NCBI RefSeq assembly: GCF_017357105.1
Contig: NZ_CP071596.1
Location: 2,914,001 to 2,978,000, forward strand
DNA from: Natronosalvus caseinilyticus
GTDB lineage: Archaea > Halobacteriota > Halobacteria > Halobacteriales > Natrialbaceae
Length of the DNA stretch: 64,000 bases
Reading direction: 5' to 3'
Shown here: one piece after another, positions 45,956 to 52,119 of the stretch
Layout: the number at the start of each line of letters is the position of its first letter
Position numbering within the stretch: position 1 is the stretch's first letter
Program-made: the position numbers and the translations under genes
Notes under the pieces: model-generated
Seen by the model: the letters and a program-made list of their open reading frames with translations, nothing else
What the model was told of the DNA's origin: nothing
Database searches by the model: none

Positions 45956-46714
45956 TTACCAGTCGAAGGGTTTGCGCACCGTACAGAAGTTATGGGTCGC
46001 GAACACCCGCCCGTCGTCGTCGATGTAGACGCCGACGCCGCCCCGGTCCCAGCCCTCGATCCCGTCGCTCTCCTCGAGGATCGTCGCCCGGTGTTCCGCT
46101 GAGTGCATCCACTGCTCGACGAGCCCTTCGGCGAGTTCGTCCGCGGTCTGGTACTCGACGTGTTCGCCGTCGTGAGAGCGTTCGACCGTCGTGCCTACGC
46201 TGGTGAGGGCGATGTTCTCGCCGTAGGCGCGACAGTAGTCGGCGACATCGCCGAACCGGTCGTACGGCGACTCGCCGTCTGCGTTGACGTGGGCGAATCG
46301 ATCGTCCGCGTGCATGTCCTGGCTGTGGGCGCGGGACACCGAGGCGACCGTCCCGTCCCACCCGAGCGGCTCGAGACCGTGTTCGGCGCGCCGTTCGTTG
46401 ACGAGTTCGTGGACTCGGTCCTCGACGGCGCTCGAGTCGACCCGTTCAGTCTCGGTTTCGTAGCTCGAGTGGCCGGGGTCGTCGGGATCGGTGACAGGCG
46501 GGTTTCGGTCGCCCGGTTCCGGCGGGTCGACGGAAGGGCCGAGTTCGTCCTCGACGAACGCGATGGCCTGCGGGGCGAGCACGACGCCCGCGAGAACGAT
46601 CGCGCCGATCAGAACGGCGGTCATCACGAGCGACGTGAGGTTCAGACTCGCTCTGTTCGTCTGGCGCTCGTTGGACGACCTCGTCCGCTCGAGTCGGCGA
46701 CCGCGTCTGCTCAT
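45956..46714 (-). CDS. Membrane-anchored CAP (SCP/PR-1) domain protein
   Basis: A 252-residue protein. An N-terminal positively charged segment and one membrane helix (about 28-55, LVMTAVLIGAIVLAGVVL) are followed by a Pro/Asp linker and a CAP domain from about residue 95. CAP marks: LVNERRAEHGL, HSQDMHADDRFAH, YGENIA, WMHSAEHRATIL and GVGVYID. The CAP domain is outside the cell. The role in archaea is unknown; in bacteria, envelope or protease-inhibitor functions have been suggested. Confidence 0.88.
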   Translation of the reverse strand: MSRRGRRLERTRSSNERQTNRASLNLTSLVMTAVLIGAIVLAGVVLAPQAIAFVEDELGPSVDPPEPGDRNPPVTDPDDPGHSSYETETERVDSSAVEDRVHELVNERRAEHGLEPLGWDGTVASVSRAHSQDMHADDRFAHVNADGESPYDRFGDVADYCRAYGENIALTSVGTTVERSHDGEHVEYQTADELAEGLVEQWMHSAEHRATILEESDGIEGWDRGGVGVYIDDDGRVFATHNFCTVRKPFDW

Positions 46715-47265: not shown

Positions 47266-48423
47266 ATGAATATCGCCGATATCGCCACCACGGAGTACAT
47301 CGAGGTCGACGTCGGGACGCGAATGGGGAAAGTCCGTTCGACGTTCGAGGACGGCAACCCCAAGGGCCTGATCGTAACCGACGACGGAGAGTACGCTGGC
47401 GTCATCAGCGAACGCGAGGTGCTCCAGTCACACGTCGAAGACGACGCCAAGGTGGCGGCGTTGATCAAGCCGAGTCGCAACGACCCGGCCCCGAAAGTCG
47501 ACCGGCACGAGGACGTCCGGGAGGTCGCCCGCATGCTCGTCGAGGGCAACACCAAGGTCGCGCCGGTGTTCGAGGGCGACAACCTCTGGGGCGTCATCAC
47601 CGAGGACGACCTCCTCACCGCCGTCCTCGAGAACCTCGACGCGATCACCGTCGGCGACATCTACACCACCGACCCGATCACGCTCGCTGAGGACGACGGC
47701 GTCGGGAAGGCGATCAACCACCTGCGCGAACACGGCATCTCCCGACTCCCCGTGGTCAACGAGAACGGCTACCTGACCGGCGTCGTGACGACCCACGACA
47801 TCGCCGACTTCGTCATCCGGGAGAACGAGCGCATGACGACCGGCGACCGCGTCGGCGACAACCAGCGGATGCTCGACGTCCCGATCTACGACATCATGAA
47901 TAGCCCCGTGGTGACCACGACGGCGGACAAGACCGCTCGAGAGGCCGTCGAAACCATGCTCGAGAACGATTACGCCGGCCTCGTCGTCACGCCGACGGAC
48001 GACGACCGACTCATCGACGGCGTGATCACCAAGACCGACGTGCTCCGGGCGCTGACGTTCACCGAGGAAGAGCACATGGACGTCCAGATCACGAACATCT
48101 CGCTCATGGACACCATCTCCCGGGAGTCCATCGTCCAGAGCATCGAGCAGGTCTCCGACAAGTACGCGGACATGCAGGTCCACCACGCCCACGTCCGATT
48201 CCACGAGCACAAGGAGAAGCTCCGCGGCACGCCCCTGATCCAGTGTCAGATTCGCCTCCGGACGAACAAATCGCAGGTCGCCGGCTCCGGCGAGGGCTAC
48301 GGCGCGGAGAACTCGTTCCGCGTCGCCCTGGACAAACTCGAGCGAAACGTCTTAGAGCTCAAGGGCGTCCGCAGCGACGAGGAGTACCGCGGCCAGTTGC
48401 TCCGGAAGTTGAACGAACTCTAG
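47266..48423 (+). CDS. Four-CBS-domain protein with a C-terminal HPF/S30AE-like domain
   Basis: A 385-residue protein. Two CBS pairs cover about residues 1-60, 68-122, 128-187 and 205-265, with loops such as VITEDDLL, VVTTHDIA and VITKTDVL that bind adenine nucleotides. The last 115 residues (about 271-385) do not look like CBS. MDVQITNISLMDTISRESIV, HHAHVRFHEH, LIQCQIRLRT and AENSFRVALDKLERNVLELK follow the strand-helix-strand-strand-strand-helix order of the ribosome hibernation factor (RaiA/HPF) fold. It could couple ATP/AMP level to ribosome shut-down. The domain call is by eye. Confidence 0.8.
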   Translation: MNIADIATTEYIEVDVGTRMGKVRSTFEDGNPKGLIVTDDGEYAGVISEREVLQSHVEDDAKVAALIKPSRNDPAPKVDRHEDVREVARMLVEGNTKVAPVFEGDNLWGVITEDDLLTAVLENLDAITVGDIYTTDPITLAEDDGVGKAINHLREHGISRLPVVNENGYLTGVVTTHDIADFVIRENERMTTGDRVGDNQRMLDVPIYDIMNSPVVTTTADKTAREAVETMLENDYAGLVVTPTDDDRLIDGVITKTDVLRALTFTEEEHMDVQITNISLMDTISRESIVQSIEQVSDKYADMQVHHAHVRFHEHKEKLRGTPLIQCQIRLRTNKSQVAGSGEGYGAENSFRVALDKLERNVLELKGVRSDEEYRGQLLRKLNEL

Positions 48424-48690: not shown

Positions 48691-49389
48691 CTACGGCCGA
48701 GCGTCGTCACTTCCCTCGAGTCCCGACCCCGTGATTCGGAACGTCACCGACTCGCCCGCCGGTTTCGAGCGGTGTTTCGTGAGCGTCGCCCGACGATTGC
48801 CGCCGCGGAACCGCTCGAGGCGGACCACCACGCCCGTCCAGTGCTCTAAGGTATTCCCACCGAGCGGGCGCGTCCGGTCGCTGTCCGGATCGGCGAACAC
48901 CTGATTCGTGACGACCACCGCGAGGTCGTGCTTGCGCGCGAGCGAGAGCAGATGGGTGATCTGGCTGGCCACCTGCCGGAGGGCGTCACCCGCCTCGCCG
49001 TCTTCGGCGCGCTCGATTCGGTAGAAGCCGGTCGCGCTGTCGAGGACGATCAGGTCGGCCTGGGTCGCGAAGTCCGCGGCGTCGCGGACGGCCTCGGCCT
49101 GTTCGTCGAAGTCGTAGGCGTCCTCGATGATGATCCGGGAGGCGACCGACTCGACGTCGTCGGTGCGAGCGGAGAGGAGTTGTTCGAACCGGTCGACCGA
49201 GACGCCCTCGGTGTCGATGAAGACGGCCGTGCCACCGGCGGCGGCCGTCTCGACGGCGGCCGACAGCGCGAGGTTCGTCTTACCCGACGCTGGCGGGCCG
49301 TACAACTGCGTGACGGCTCCGCGTTCGAACCCGCCCTCGAGCAACGCGTCGACCGGGGGACAGCCGGTCGATATCGCCTCGTCGTTCAC
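48691..49389 (-). CDS. radB: DNA repair and recombination protein RadB
   Basis: A 232-residue RecA-fold ATPase without the N-terminal helix-hairpin-helix domain of RadA. Walker A is GPPASGKTN and Walker B LIVLDSAT. RadB is an archaeal RadA paralog that helps RadA in recombination. GTG 49389 is chosen as start (VNDEAISTGCPPVDALLEGG), since that matches the family N-terminus; upstream codons in the frame run into the divergent promoter. It is divergent from a predicted RNase H-fold nuclease. Confidence 0.93.
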   Translation of the reverse strand: MNDEAISTGCPPVDALLEGGFERGAVTQLYGPPASGKTNLALSAAVETAAAGGTAVFIDTEGVSVDRFEQLLSARTDDVESVASRIIIEDAYDFDEQAEAVRDAADFATQADLIVLDSATGFYRIERAEDGEAGDALRQVASQITHLLSLARKHDLAVVVTNQVFADPDSDRTRPLGGNTLEHWTGVVVRLERFRGGNRRATLTKHRSKPAGESVTFRITGSGLEGSDDARP

Positions 49390-49454
49390 GCGCTCAGTTG
49401 GGAGGTAGCGGGCAAAAACCCCCCGGAACCGATCGCTCGTCCGGAGACGGAGCA

Positions 49455-49462
49455 ATTTATTC
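49455..49462 (+). promoter_or_regulatory. TATA box of the RuvC-like gene
   Basis: ATTTATTC, 26 bases before the ATG at 49484, within the 94-base gap to radB. It shows that a GTG at 49478 is not needed. Confidence 0.55.
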
Positions 49463-49483
49463 GGTGGCAGTCGAAGCGTGGGT

Positions 49484-50296
49484 ATGATCGTCGTCGCCAC
49501 CGCGGACTTCGAAGTGTACCACGAAGTCGTCGCCGACCTTCGCGATCGAGGCGCGACCTTCACGACGATCGAACCCGACGACCCGCTCCCGTCGAAAACC
49601 GTCGTCGTCCTCACCGGTGCGGAGCACGCCGAATCGTTCGCGGACGCCGACGCGCCGACTATCGTCGTGGACCCCGACGACAGCCGACAGGCGGTCGATC
49701 AGGCGCTCGCGACCATCCGCGGCGAGCACGGTCGAACCGTCGTCGGCGTCGATCCCGGACGCCAGCCCGGCATCGCCGTGCTCGCGGGGGAGACCGTCGT
49801 CGCCGCGTTCCAGGTGCCACTGGGCGACGCCGTCGACGTCGTCCTCGAGGAGGTCCGTGGCGACGACGCCGTCGACCCGGTCGTCCGCATCGGCGATGGG
49901 TCGCGCCTCGAGGGCGCCAAACTGATCAACGAACTCGAGGACGTCCGCGTCGAGATGGTCGACGAGACGGGGACGACGCCGTACCTCGGCACCGGTGCCA
50001 GAGGGATGGGTGACGTCCTCGCAGCGGTGAACATCGCCCGACTCGAGGGCGAGGCGATCGACACCCGCGAGATCGAACCGACGCCAGGAGAGCTCCAGGT
50101 GATCAAGGACCGCTCGCGCGAGCGAAGCGAGGCGAATCGGGCGATCGACGAGACCCTGGCCAGGCGAGTCGCGAGCGGCGAGTTGACGGTCGAGGAGGCG
50201 CTCGCGGTGCATCGAAACGATGTCGACGGTGAGGATAGCGGCGACGGGGGAGACAGCGCCGACGAAGAAGACGGCAGCGACGACGACGCGAACTGA
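49484..50296 (+). CDS. Predicted RNase H-fold (RuvC/YqgF-like) nuclease
   Basis: A 270-residue protein. After a small N-terminal alpha/beta domain (about 1-80), TVVGVDPGRQPGIAVL begins an RNase H-like fold with Asp90. Glu161 in MVDETGTT and Asp177 in GMGDVLAAVNIA fall where RuvC and YqgF have their other metal-binding acids, and DVLAAVNIA resembles the RuvC C-terminal helix. The tail (about 190-270) is charged and ends in an Asp/Gly/Ser-rich stretch. Next to radB, a role on recombination or replication intermediates is plausible. No biochemical data on this family are known to me. Confidence 0.75.
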   Translation: MIVVATADFEVYHEVVADLRDRGATFTTIEPDDPLPSKTVVVLTGAEHAESFADADAPTIVVDPDDSRQAVDQALATIRGEHGRTVVGVDPGRQPGIAVLAGETVVAAFQVPLGDAVDVVLEEVRGDDAVDPVVRIGDGSRLEGAKLINELEDVRVEMVDETGTTPYLGTGARGMGDVLAAVNIARLEGEAIDTREIEPTPGELQVIKDRSRERSEANRAIDETLARRVASGELTVEEALAVHRNDVDGEDSGDGGDSADEEDGSDDDAN

Positions 50297-50410: not shown

Positions 50411-51889
50411 TCAGGACGAACGCTCCGCCCAGAACGCCTGCTCGGCTCGAGCCACGATCGACTGAATCGGCTCGCCTGTCTCGGCGGCGACGGCCACGGC
50501 GTCGTCGTACTCCGCGCTCGCGTCGTAGACCTCGCCGGCTTCGTCGCTCGCCACCTTGACCGTCACCTCGTAGGCGTCGCCGCCGACATCAAGCGTCACC
50601 GTCTCGAACGCGCGCTGGGCGATCCAGCGATGAGTGACGCCGGCCTCGCGGATACCGAGGGTTCCCGTCTCCTCGGCGAGTTGCCGGGCGACGCGTTCCC
50701 GGTCGGCGGGTCTGCAGATCACCTTGACCAGGTGGCCCGGCCGGGACTTCTTCATCGTGACCGGGACGATGGAAACGTCTCGAGCGCCCGCATCCGAGAG
50801 CGTCTCCTGGAGGCCGCCGAGCACTTCGGGGGTCGCGTCGTCGAGGTTCGTCTCGAGAACGGCGATGTCCTCGCGCTGGAGGCCCCCTCGAGTCGTCCCG
50901 ACCAGCGCGCGGAGCACGTTCGGGTGGGGATCGAGGTCGTAGCCACCGGCGCCGTAGCCCGTGTTTTCGACGGTCATCGTCGGGAGGTCCTGGATTCCCT
51001 CGGCGACGTGAGCCAGGATAGCGGCTCCCGTCGGCGTCAGGAGTTCCGCCTCGACCGGGCCGCCGGAGAGTTCCCAGTCGGCCCGCTCCGCGACCTCGAG
51101 GACGGCCGGGGCGGGGATCGGGTACTCGCCGTGGCTCATCGAGACGGTGCCCCCGCCAGTCGAGATGGGCGTCGTCACGACGCGGTCGGCCTCGAGGTCG
51201 TGTAACAGCAAGACGGCGCCGACGATGTCTGCGATCGCGTCGTCGGCACCCACCTCGTGGAAGTGAATCGACTCGAGGTCGGTGCCGTGGACGGCGGCCT
51301 CCGCTTCGCCGAGTCGTTCGAAGATGGCGAGCGCGTGAGCTTCGACTGCCTCCTCGAGGTCCATGTTTCGGACGATGTCACAGACCTCGAGGTAGCTCCG
51401 GTGGGGGCCGTGGCCTTCGGCGTGGACGTGACCGTCGTCTCCGTGGTTGTGGTCGTGGTCGTCGTCTCCGTGGTCGTGGCTGTGATTGTGGCCGTTACCG
51501 TGGCTGTGATTGTGATCGTGACCATGGCCATTATCGGCGGCGTGGCCGTGTTCGTCTTCGTGTCCGTGGTGATGGTGACCACCCGTAACCTCACTTTCCG
51601 AACCTTGCTCGTGCACACCGTCGTCCTTATGCTCGTCCCCGCGCTCTCTATCGTCGTGACGGGCCACCTCAAGGTAGGCGTCCTGGCTGCTGGAGGTGGG
51701 GATCACGACGTCGACCGTCGTCGCGTGGATCCCACACTTCGAGGTGTGCCCGATACGATACTCGACGCCGAGCGCGTCTTCGACGGGCTCGAGGGCCGTC
51801 CGGTCGGCACCCGCAGCGAGCAGGGCGCCGAGTACCATGTCGCCGCTGGCGCCCATCCGGCCGTCGAATGCGAGCAGTCTCCTGGTCAT
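50411..51889 (-). CDS. larC: LarC: pyridinium-3,5-bisthiocarboxylic acid mononucleotide nickel insertion protein
   Basis: A 492-residue LarC protein, which inserts nickel into the nickel-pincer cofactor of lactate racemase and relatives. The start is AFDGRMGASGDMVLGALLAAGAD. A long His/Asp/Glu/Gly-rich segment (about 110-190, e.g. HHHHGHEDEHG) probably stores nickel. FHEVGADDAIADIVG and GGGTVSMSHGEYPIPAP are core LarC motifs. No larB, larE or racemase is in view. ATG 51889 is used; earlier codons lack family similarity. Confidence 0.92.
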   Translation of the reverse strand: MTRRLLAFDGRMGASGDMVLGALLAAGADRTALEPVEDALGVEYRIGHTSKCGIHATTVDVVIPTSSSQDAYLEVARHDDRERGDEHKDDGVHEQGSESEVTGGHHHHGHEDEHGHAADNGHGHDHNHSHGNGHNHSHDHGDDDHDHNHGDDGHVHAEGHGPHRSYLEVCDIVRNMDLEEAVEAHALAIFERLGEAEAAVHGTDLESIHFHEVGADDAIADIVGAVLLLHDLEADRVVTTPISTGGGTVSMSHGEYPIPAPAVLEVAERADWELSGGPVEAELLTPTGAAILAHVAEGIQDLPTMTVENTGYGAGGYDLDPHPNVLRALVGTTRGGLQREDIAVLETNLDDATPEVLGGLQETLSDAGARDVSIVPVTMKKSRPGHLVKVICRPADRERVARQLAEETGTLGIREAGVTHRWIAQRAFETVTLDVGGDAYEVTVKVASDEAGEVYDASAEYDDAVAVAAETGEPIQSIVARAEQAFWAERSS

Positions 51890-52119
51890 AGCTAGGACGG
51901 CGGGCAGCGTGACCAAAAACCCACGCACTCCCGCGCAGGGAAAGGCCGTCGTTCCGTCTCGGAAAACGACCGAGGCCGGTACATCTATGTAGCTCCCTGA
52001 CTCAGTCACATATGACAGGCGCTAGCACAGGTGCGTTCGCGGATCGATGCGTCTGCTGTGAGCAAAACACCTATCCGACATCGAGTCGGAGTCAGGAACA
52101 TCCCCGTCTACCCCAAACC

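Follow-up and report, generated by a model that had tools for sequence, protein, structure and literature searches.

Facing radB in the window (the whole stretch of 64,000 nucleotides that was analysed) is a gene for a protein with a predicted RNase H fold and three acidic residues that are nearly invariant among its relatives. The preferred reading, with a chance of being right that seems about even, is that the protein family consists of nucleases of the YqgF/RuvX kind in RadA/RadB recombination, with a role on recombination intermediates. Counted in its favor are the conservation of the triad, the YqgF-like rows among the structural matches, the profile alignment to RuvX, the matches to PHROG 1770, and radB and FEN1 as neighbors. 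We infer the catalysis, the metal, the substrate and the partnership with RadB or its pathway. Searches of open-licence PMC papers brought up no description of this family. The features of the region are the following:

49484-50296, + strand: gene of the predicted YqgF/RuvX-type RNase H-fold protein, 270 aa, stop codon counted in the coordinates
49484-49729, + strand: N-terminal Rossmann-like domain, residues 1-82 (modelled alone: pLDDT 93.4, pTM 0.83; generic alpha/beta fold matches)
49730-50053, + strand: predicted RNase H-fold domain, residues 83-190 (structure model, structural matches, profile alignment)
49751-49753, + strand: codon of Asp90, end of beta-1, predicted metal ligand (125/125 distinct ORFs)
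49964-49966, + strand: codon of Glu161, directly after beta-5, predicted metal ligand at the YqgF position
50012-50014, + strand: codon of Asp177, last helix of the fold (model helix 175-186), predicted metal ligand
50066-50221, + strand: C-terminal conserved helical region, residues 195-246 (R212, S215, I221 and H243 near-invariant)
50222-50293, + strand: acidic low-complexity tail, residues 247-270, without conservation (pLDDT of the block 45-67)
49390-49483, no strand: divergent intergenic region of 94 bases, common to the nuclease-like gene and radB
49456-49461, + strand: TATA-like TTTATT, -28 to -23 of the start (AT-rich box in relatives)
48691-49389, - strand: radB, recombination mediator (RadA paralog), divergent partner (two RadB models above cut-off)

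Gene and Start Site

The reading frame opens with ATG at 49484 (protein start MIVVATADF) and ends with a stop codon at 50294-50296. It contains the motifs that the first-pass annotation had singled out, numbered as stated there: VGVDPGRQPGIAVL with Asp90, VEMVDETGTTP with Glu161 and GDVLAAVNIA with Asp177. The presence of relatives in 158 of 194 Halobacteria genomes and the conservation of the three acidic residues in 125 ORFs are beyond chance. A start codon occupies the aligned place in 38 of 40 GTDB Halobacteria loci (L031-L070); it is GTG in every one, and ATG in the window. These 38 relatives and the window have in common an AT-rich box, with its peak at about -30 to -25, which reads TTTATT in most of the closer relatives. 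Judged from sequence, this box supports the start given here and a promoter belonging to the gene itself, and it is in keeping with a gene that has a TATA box of its own and a leader that is short or missing.

Predicted Fold

The AlphaFold2 model of the whole protein, built on a 50-row alignment, has a mean pLDDT of 79.5 and a pTM of 0.48. An N-terminal alpha/beta domain (residues 1-80) is followed by residues 85-186 in the order beta-beta-beta-alpha-beta-alpha-beta-alpha, which is that of RNase H, then by helices and a disordered acidic tail. From this order of strands and helices and from the structural matches, residues 82-190 are predicted to adopt an RNase H fold.

No Foldseek match to the model of the protein reached E<=0.001, and a mixture of folds headed the list: terminase, Argonaute, pantothenate kinase, Ppx/GppA. 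The 1000 best Foldseek chains were realigned with VIA over residues 82-196, rows within 1 Z being tied. The YqgF domain of Tex (3bzk; Z 11.7, rmsd 3.5, 104 aligned residues, 25% identity) comes first, followed by YqgF of Deinococcus radiodurans (7w89; Z 11.6, rmsd 2.6, 101 aligned, 25%), the ISCro4/IS621 recombinases (Z 11.1-11.4, 12-13% identity) and MtRuvX (7ess; Z 11.0, rmsd 2.7, 106 aligned, 20%). A phage TerL nuclease (Z 10.4), RuvC (TthRuvC, 4ld0; Z 10.1, rmsd 3.5, 107 aligned, 19%) and Spt6 (Z 10.0) are next. Lower rows hold pantothenate kinase (9.5), E. coli YqgF (1nu0, 8.9), B. subtilis YqgF (8.8) and YeaZ/TsaB (8.8). Two true YqgF structures are hence placed no higher than non-nuclease folds, and the subtype is therefore not fixed by structure alone. 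The Foldseek null, the pTM of the whole model and the position of these two YqgF structures below pantothenate kinase count against the reading as a YqgF/RuvX-kind nuclease. Among the sequences of solved structures, phmmer found no match to the protein and a profile search three weak ones (best E 0.13).

The N-terminal domain has a single Foldseek match at E<=0.001, the PTS mannitol IIB protein 1vrv, and VIA places PurE best (Z 9.7), then receivers and PTS IIB. Only generic alpha/beta folds were thus matched by this domain. A comparison of the domain with the upstream regions of DUF460 proteins gave nothing (hhalign probability 2.6).

Active-Site Layout

Passages of a study on YqgF (PMC9601230) place the Glu of RuvC at the end of beta-4, whereas in YqgF this residue is lacking and the conserved Glu lies where beta-5 ends. 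The last helix carries one carboxylate in YqgF and two catalytic residues in RuvC. In the same passages, YqgF sites hold three carboxylates only and the reported activities vary by species, both of which count against the nuclease reading. Parts of a second study (PMC3985635) describe the same migration of the carboxylate to beta-5 in Tex and YqgF, with the third carboxylate missing in Tex; the migrated carboxylate of YqgF is judged there to be poorly placed. DUF460 has its Asp residues on beta-1, beta-4 and the C-terminal helix, according to these parts.

In the family, residue 138 at the end of beta-4 is D in 81 ORFs, H in 32, N in 10, S in one and R in one (n = 125), hence no conserved acid. 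Glu161 is assigned from its conservation in the 125 ORFs, from the model strand 156-159 that precedes it and from the profile alignment to the DER motif of YqgF. As predicted from the sequences and the model, the active-site layout is that of YqgF (Glu after beta-5), not that of RuvC (Glu on beta-4). The proposal of a RuvC/YqgF active site thus stands as to the predicted RNase H fold and the near-invariant triad, and is sharpened to the YqgF layout at the expense of the RuvC one.

Profile Comparisons

The RNase H-fold domain was aligned by hhalign with 11 RuvX sequences over 86 columns (probability 74, score 34.3; maximum score of 15.8 in 40 column-permuted control runs). The alignment spans the first motif through DETGTTP, which is paired with DERLSTV of YqgF. 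When the profile of the full-length family took the place of the domain, the probability fell to 47, over 84 columns. Against 27 DUF460 domains, the probability is 94 and the score 48.0 (control maximum 19.5), over 41 columns around the first motif alone. Against eight RuvC sequences, 18 columns were aligned (probability 39, score 29.9; control maximum 17.7). On the same scale, RuvX and RuvC align with each other at probability 37 and score 30.0, and DUF460 and RuvC at 83 and 39.2. DUF460 outscores RuvX through the first motif, while the alignment with RuvX covers more columns and extends into the second catalytic motif. Asp177 is outside all of these alignments.

The curated RuvX model of Pfam (PF03652) is missing from the matches of the window protein up to E 1 and from the families matched by 50 members at 0.1. 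The profile search against RuvC and YqgF proposed at first gave 86 aligned columns with RuvX, 18 with RuvC and no match to the Pfam RuvX model. PF04312 (DUF460) gives the window protein 14.2 bits against a cut-off of 28; 44 of 50 members match it weakly (best E 0.0017). Of 22 members, 17 match PHROG 1770, "Holliday junction resolvase", at E<=0.01 (best 1.4e-5). The window protein is one of those that do not, and in the three members viewed in detail the match begins at the first motif. Since E. coli RuvC and a DUF460 piece also match PHROG 1770 but E. coli YqgF fails to, these matches support an RNase H domain of resolvase type and leave the YqgF subtype unsupported. The higher DUF460 score, the fall of the RuvX probability with the full-length profile, the missing Pfam RuvX match, the absence of the window protein from the PHROG 1770 matches and the failure of E. 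coli YqgF to match that model all count against the preferred reading.

Two assignments were rejected: RuvC proper, for want of a beta-4 acid and with only 18 columns aligned, and membership of DUF460, which has a beta-4 Asp that the family lacks and a model score below cut-off, although the first motif is related. Weak Pfam matches to Csa3_N (14/50 members, best E 0.0076) and Big_3_3 (15/50, best E 0.0013), as well as weak NCBIfam matches (best E 0.0013), were not taken as real. The PADLOC defence models gave no match at E<=0.01. In our reading, the family works in the manner of the resolvase side of the RNase H superfamily (RuvC/YqgF/DUF460) and is probably derived from it, with a YqgF layout.

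Distribution and Conservation of the Family

Relatives of the window protein were found in 158 of 194 Halobacteria genomes, representing 58 of 65 genera. A profile search of the phylum gave matches at E<=0.001 in 122 of 392 genomes. These matches are strong (best E 3.5e-40 or smaller) in 89 genomes, of which 61 are Halobacteria and 28 belong to seven other family-level groups (f11, f16, f18, f21, f24, f33 and f37). In the remaining 33 genomes the matches are all weak (E 3.8e-5 to 9.8e-4), and most cover a short stretch at the first motif of a long ORF; those compared (e.g., in G219, G201 and G210) are DUF460 proteins. The genome_contigs scan, which reaches close relatives only, yielded 66 loci, all archaeal: 42 come from Halobacteria, and the other 24 are mostly from Methanoperedens and include one Thermoplasmata metagenome-assembled genome (MAG). 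Relatives of the family were not found in the viral_contigs scan, nor were relatives of YqgF. Natronorubrum bangense carries a plasmid-borne copy annotated as "hypothetical protein".

Conservation was followed in 125 distinct ORFs, the window's own included, from 144 loci, some of them of the same genome. Asp90 is kept in all 125; position 161 is Glu in 123, Asp in one and a gap in one; position 177 is Asp in 124 and a gap in one. Gly137 and Arg141 are also present in 125/125, and position 135 is Arg in 122 and Lys in three. The acidic triad is invariant across the 50-row family alignment, with identities down to 31%. Loss of the acidic residues in orthologs, named beforehand as a sign against a nuclease, did not occur in the 125 ORFs.

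The first-pass annotation had pointed to Hjc, rather than RuvC, as the archaeal resolvase. Hjc was indeed found in 194 of 194 Halobacteria genomes, and the family protein is no substitute for it. RadB is present in all 194 as well, while the family gene is absent from 36 of them, which counts against the preferred reading. Because RadB and Hjc are universal in this set and the family gene is found in 158 genomes, the gene is accessory; for the same reason, co-occurrence with RadB or Hjc is uninformative. For ten of the 36 gene-less genomes, the radB locus was searched with the family profile, and no stop-to-stop ORF of at least 60 aa matched it at E<=1.

Pairing with radB and Other Neighbors

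RadB is a recombination mediator in H. volcanii, according to parts of two papers (PMC5480776, PMC7776575). The claim of a 94-base region shared with a divergent RadA paralog was borne out: the gap is as described, and the RadB of the window passes both RadB models (NF006861, 418.5 bits vs. a cut-off of 278; TIGR02237, 261.6 vs. 172.4). Among 30 Halobacteria loci with flanks of about 1.5 kb, the window's own included, 26 have divergent radB upstream. In a second set that overlaps with the first in species, it is divergent in 37 of 42 GTDB Halobacteria loci, within 1.2 kb in 36 and at 3 kb in one. Of the five other loci, three are cut by a contig end less than 300 bases away, whereas L064 and L067 show no radB over 5 kb. 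The latter two are loci of halobacterial MAGs that do carry the nuclease-like gene.

Outside this class, 10 of 18 loci of other Halobacteriota have divergent radB, with gaps of 78-344 bases; these are 10 of the 10 loci from f11, f16, f18 and f24. All ten RadB partners, those of G201 and G251 included, pass TIGR02237, and the eight checked against the stricter NF006861 are below its cut-off. Adjacent radB was found in none of the eight loci of f21, f33 and f37 (some with short flanks, two of them with under 1.4 kb upstream), and in none of the 24 Methanoperedens, uncultured and Thermoplasmata loci. Conservation of the pairing consequently holds in Halobacteria and in four of the seven other Halobacteriota families, and fails in three families and at the 24 Methanoperedens and other loci. 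In one Methanoperedens locus (L084:3969-4772, - strand), the gene upstream on the opposite strand encodes a KaiC-like RecA-fold ATPase, not RadB.

In both f21 loci analysed, the same-strand upstream neighbor is FEN1, the flap endonuclease, identified by NCBIfam in L130 and by Pfam XPG domains in L140. Lying at L130:7133-8152 and L140:7121-8137, it takes the place of a facing radB and forms a second DNA-repair linkage.

LarC (nickel insertion) and CDC48 are encoded downstream in the window and in L141, and by eye at other distant loci. As they are also in the block, the block is conserved as a whole, and part of the radB linkage may be general synteny. In the f18 loci L131 and L133, LarC-like ORFs are 2-4 kb off (by eye) and radB is still adjacent. 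In Pyrococcales, radB and polD1 form one operon, as described in a part of PMC5480776; radB therefore has other partners elsewhere. The absence of radB at 24 + 8 loci and the possible general synteny count against the preferred reading.

Several further genes were noted around these loci. A DUF373 gene is close to the family gene in f33 (L139:2156-3259) and in Methanoperedens (L084:5744-6841), both by Pfam, and in others by eye. The LarC-like nickel insertion protein of the window (50411-52009, - strand) has a long His/Asp/Gly-rich insert, HGHDHNHSHGNGHNHSHDH, perhaps involved in metal binding. A CBS-domain protein with four matched stretches is encoded at 47266-48423 (+ strand); its C-terminal part is weakly S30AE-like (E 0.0046, below cut-off), and a relative of it is found in the radB region of seven of the ten genomes without the nuclease-like gene. 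The product of 45956-46714 (- strand) has, by eye, the look of a secreted CAP/SCP-domain protein.

Proposed Function

As a nuclease of the YqgF/RuvX kind, the protein would hold Mg2+ or Mn2+ with D90 (beta-1), E161 (after beta-5) and D177 (last helix), and the metal-bound triad would hydrolyze the phosphodiester in branched or hybrid nucleic acid. The N-terminal Rossmann-like domain and the C-terminal helical region may bind substrate or a partner. The enzyme would act in RadA/RadB homologous recombination, probably on strand-exchange intermediates (junctions, D-loops, flaps), in a role accessory to Hjc and Hef. It is conceivable, if rather doubtful, that the family is a class of archaeal YqgF-type enzymes without a name so far, resolving junctions or cutting branched DNA together with RadB; after Hjc and Hef, it would be the third enzyme of Halobacteriota to process recombination intermediates. 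Junction resolution with RadB in particular is as doubtful. No nuclease partner was found described in the portions of the RadB literature consulted. The family protein, with its predicted RNase H fold, its triad and its conserved divergent pairing, is a concrete candidate for such a partner, and the YqgF-type active site, of which the activity is debated in bacteria, would be extended to a separate three-domain archaeal family.

The main rival, supported by analogy with the bacterial YqgF homologs, is an RNA nuclease for rRNA trimming or for RNA cleavage linked to transcription, with radB as a promoter-sharing neighbor only; we consider it possible but somewhat unlikely. In passages of PMC9601230, E. 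coli YqgF is connected with the processing of 16S rRNA and has ssRNA and RNA/DNA hybrids as its substrates, and DrYqgF cuts RNA and none of the structured DNAs tested. The YqgF-type layout of the family agrees with such a role, as do the missing radB link at the 24 Methanoperedens and other loci and at eight further ones, and a tRNA synthetase of Glu/Gln type as the next downstream gene in the single Thermoplasmata locus. However, no recurring ribosomal or RNA-processing neighbor was seen by eye among the ORFs listed for sets of eight and 18 loci; what recurs next to the gene is radB, with four families beyond Halobacteria, and, in f21, FEN1.

A non-catalytic scaffold that binds nucleic acid, like the YqgF-like domain of Tex or Spt6, is improbable. 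The Tex domain is the first structural row, tied with YqgF, and the beta-5 carboxylate of YqgF is judged poorly placed in the part of PMC3985635 cited above. The same part reports the third carboxylate missing in Tex, whereas the family has Asp at position 177 in each of the 124 ORFs that are not gapped at this place, along with an invariant D90 and a nearly invariant E161. The retention of all three carboxylates makes an inactive scaffold of the Tex kind less likely.

An RNase H-fold ATPase or kinase of the TsaB or type III pantothenate kinase kind is very improbable: such folds are present in both the Foldseek and the VIA lists, and in the latter they score no lower than the YqgF of E. coli and of B. 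subtilis, but Z values above 10 belong to YqgF-like domains, nucleases and recombinases, the profile comparison pairs DETGTTP with the YqgF motif, and the window protein passes no Pfam cut-off of any ATPase family. The confident match to a non-nuclease ATPase of this fold named at the outset as a counter-sign did not appear.

Comparison with Known Systems

Hjc (PF01870) would share with the family the role of an archaeal recombination nuclease, if the YqgF/RuvX-kind nuclease reading is right. It is absent from the Pfam matches of the window protein and its relatives, and is a separate gene in 194 genomes. RuvC (PF02075) has the fold and the first motif in common with the family, together with a weak match to PHROG 1770. 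It differs in its beta-4 Glu and its two catalytic residues on the last helix, as the family has no beta-4 Glu and a single conserved Asp in that helix.

DUF460/COG2433 (PF04312) is archaeal, like the family, and its first motif is similar. Its second Asp is on beta-4, where no acid is conserved in the family. A DUF460 gene is co-resident in the window genome (G000:C1:642072). The protein from this region (L160) has, by eye, a seeming second N-terminal set of RNase H-like motifs (VFGVDV, IVATDN).

The YqgF-like domain of Tex and Spt6 provides the top structural row and the same carboxylate after beta-5. The third carboxylate, missing in Tex, is kept in the family (D177 in 124/125). In Tex and Spt6, HtH, HhH and S1 modules surround this domain, and Pfam matches to HtH, HhH or S1 are not listed for the window protein.

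With YqgF/RuvX (PF03652, COG0816), the family shares the predicted RNase H fold, the Asp on beta-1, the Glu at the end of beta-5 and the single Asp on the last helix. It differs by its extra N-terminal Rossmann-like domain and C-terminal helical region, by its length (270 aa for the window protein vs. 138 aa for E. coli YqgF) and by the curated model, which the window protein leaves unmatched. Two tests of YqgF membership, the curated model and the single-domain length, came out negative, and we read the family as a three-domain variant of the YqgF/RuvX kind.
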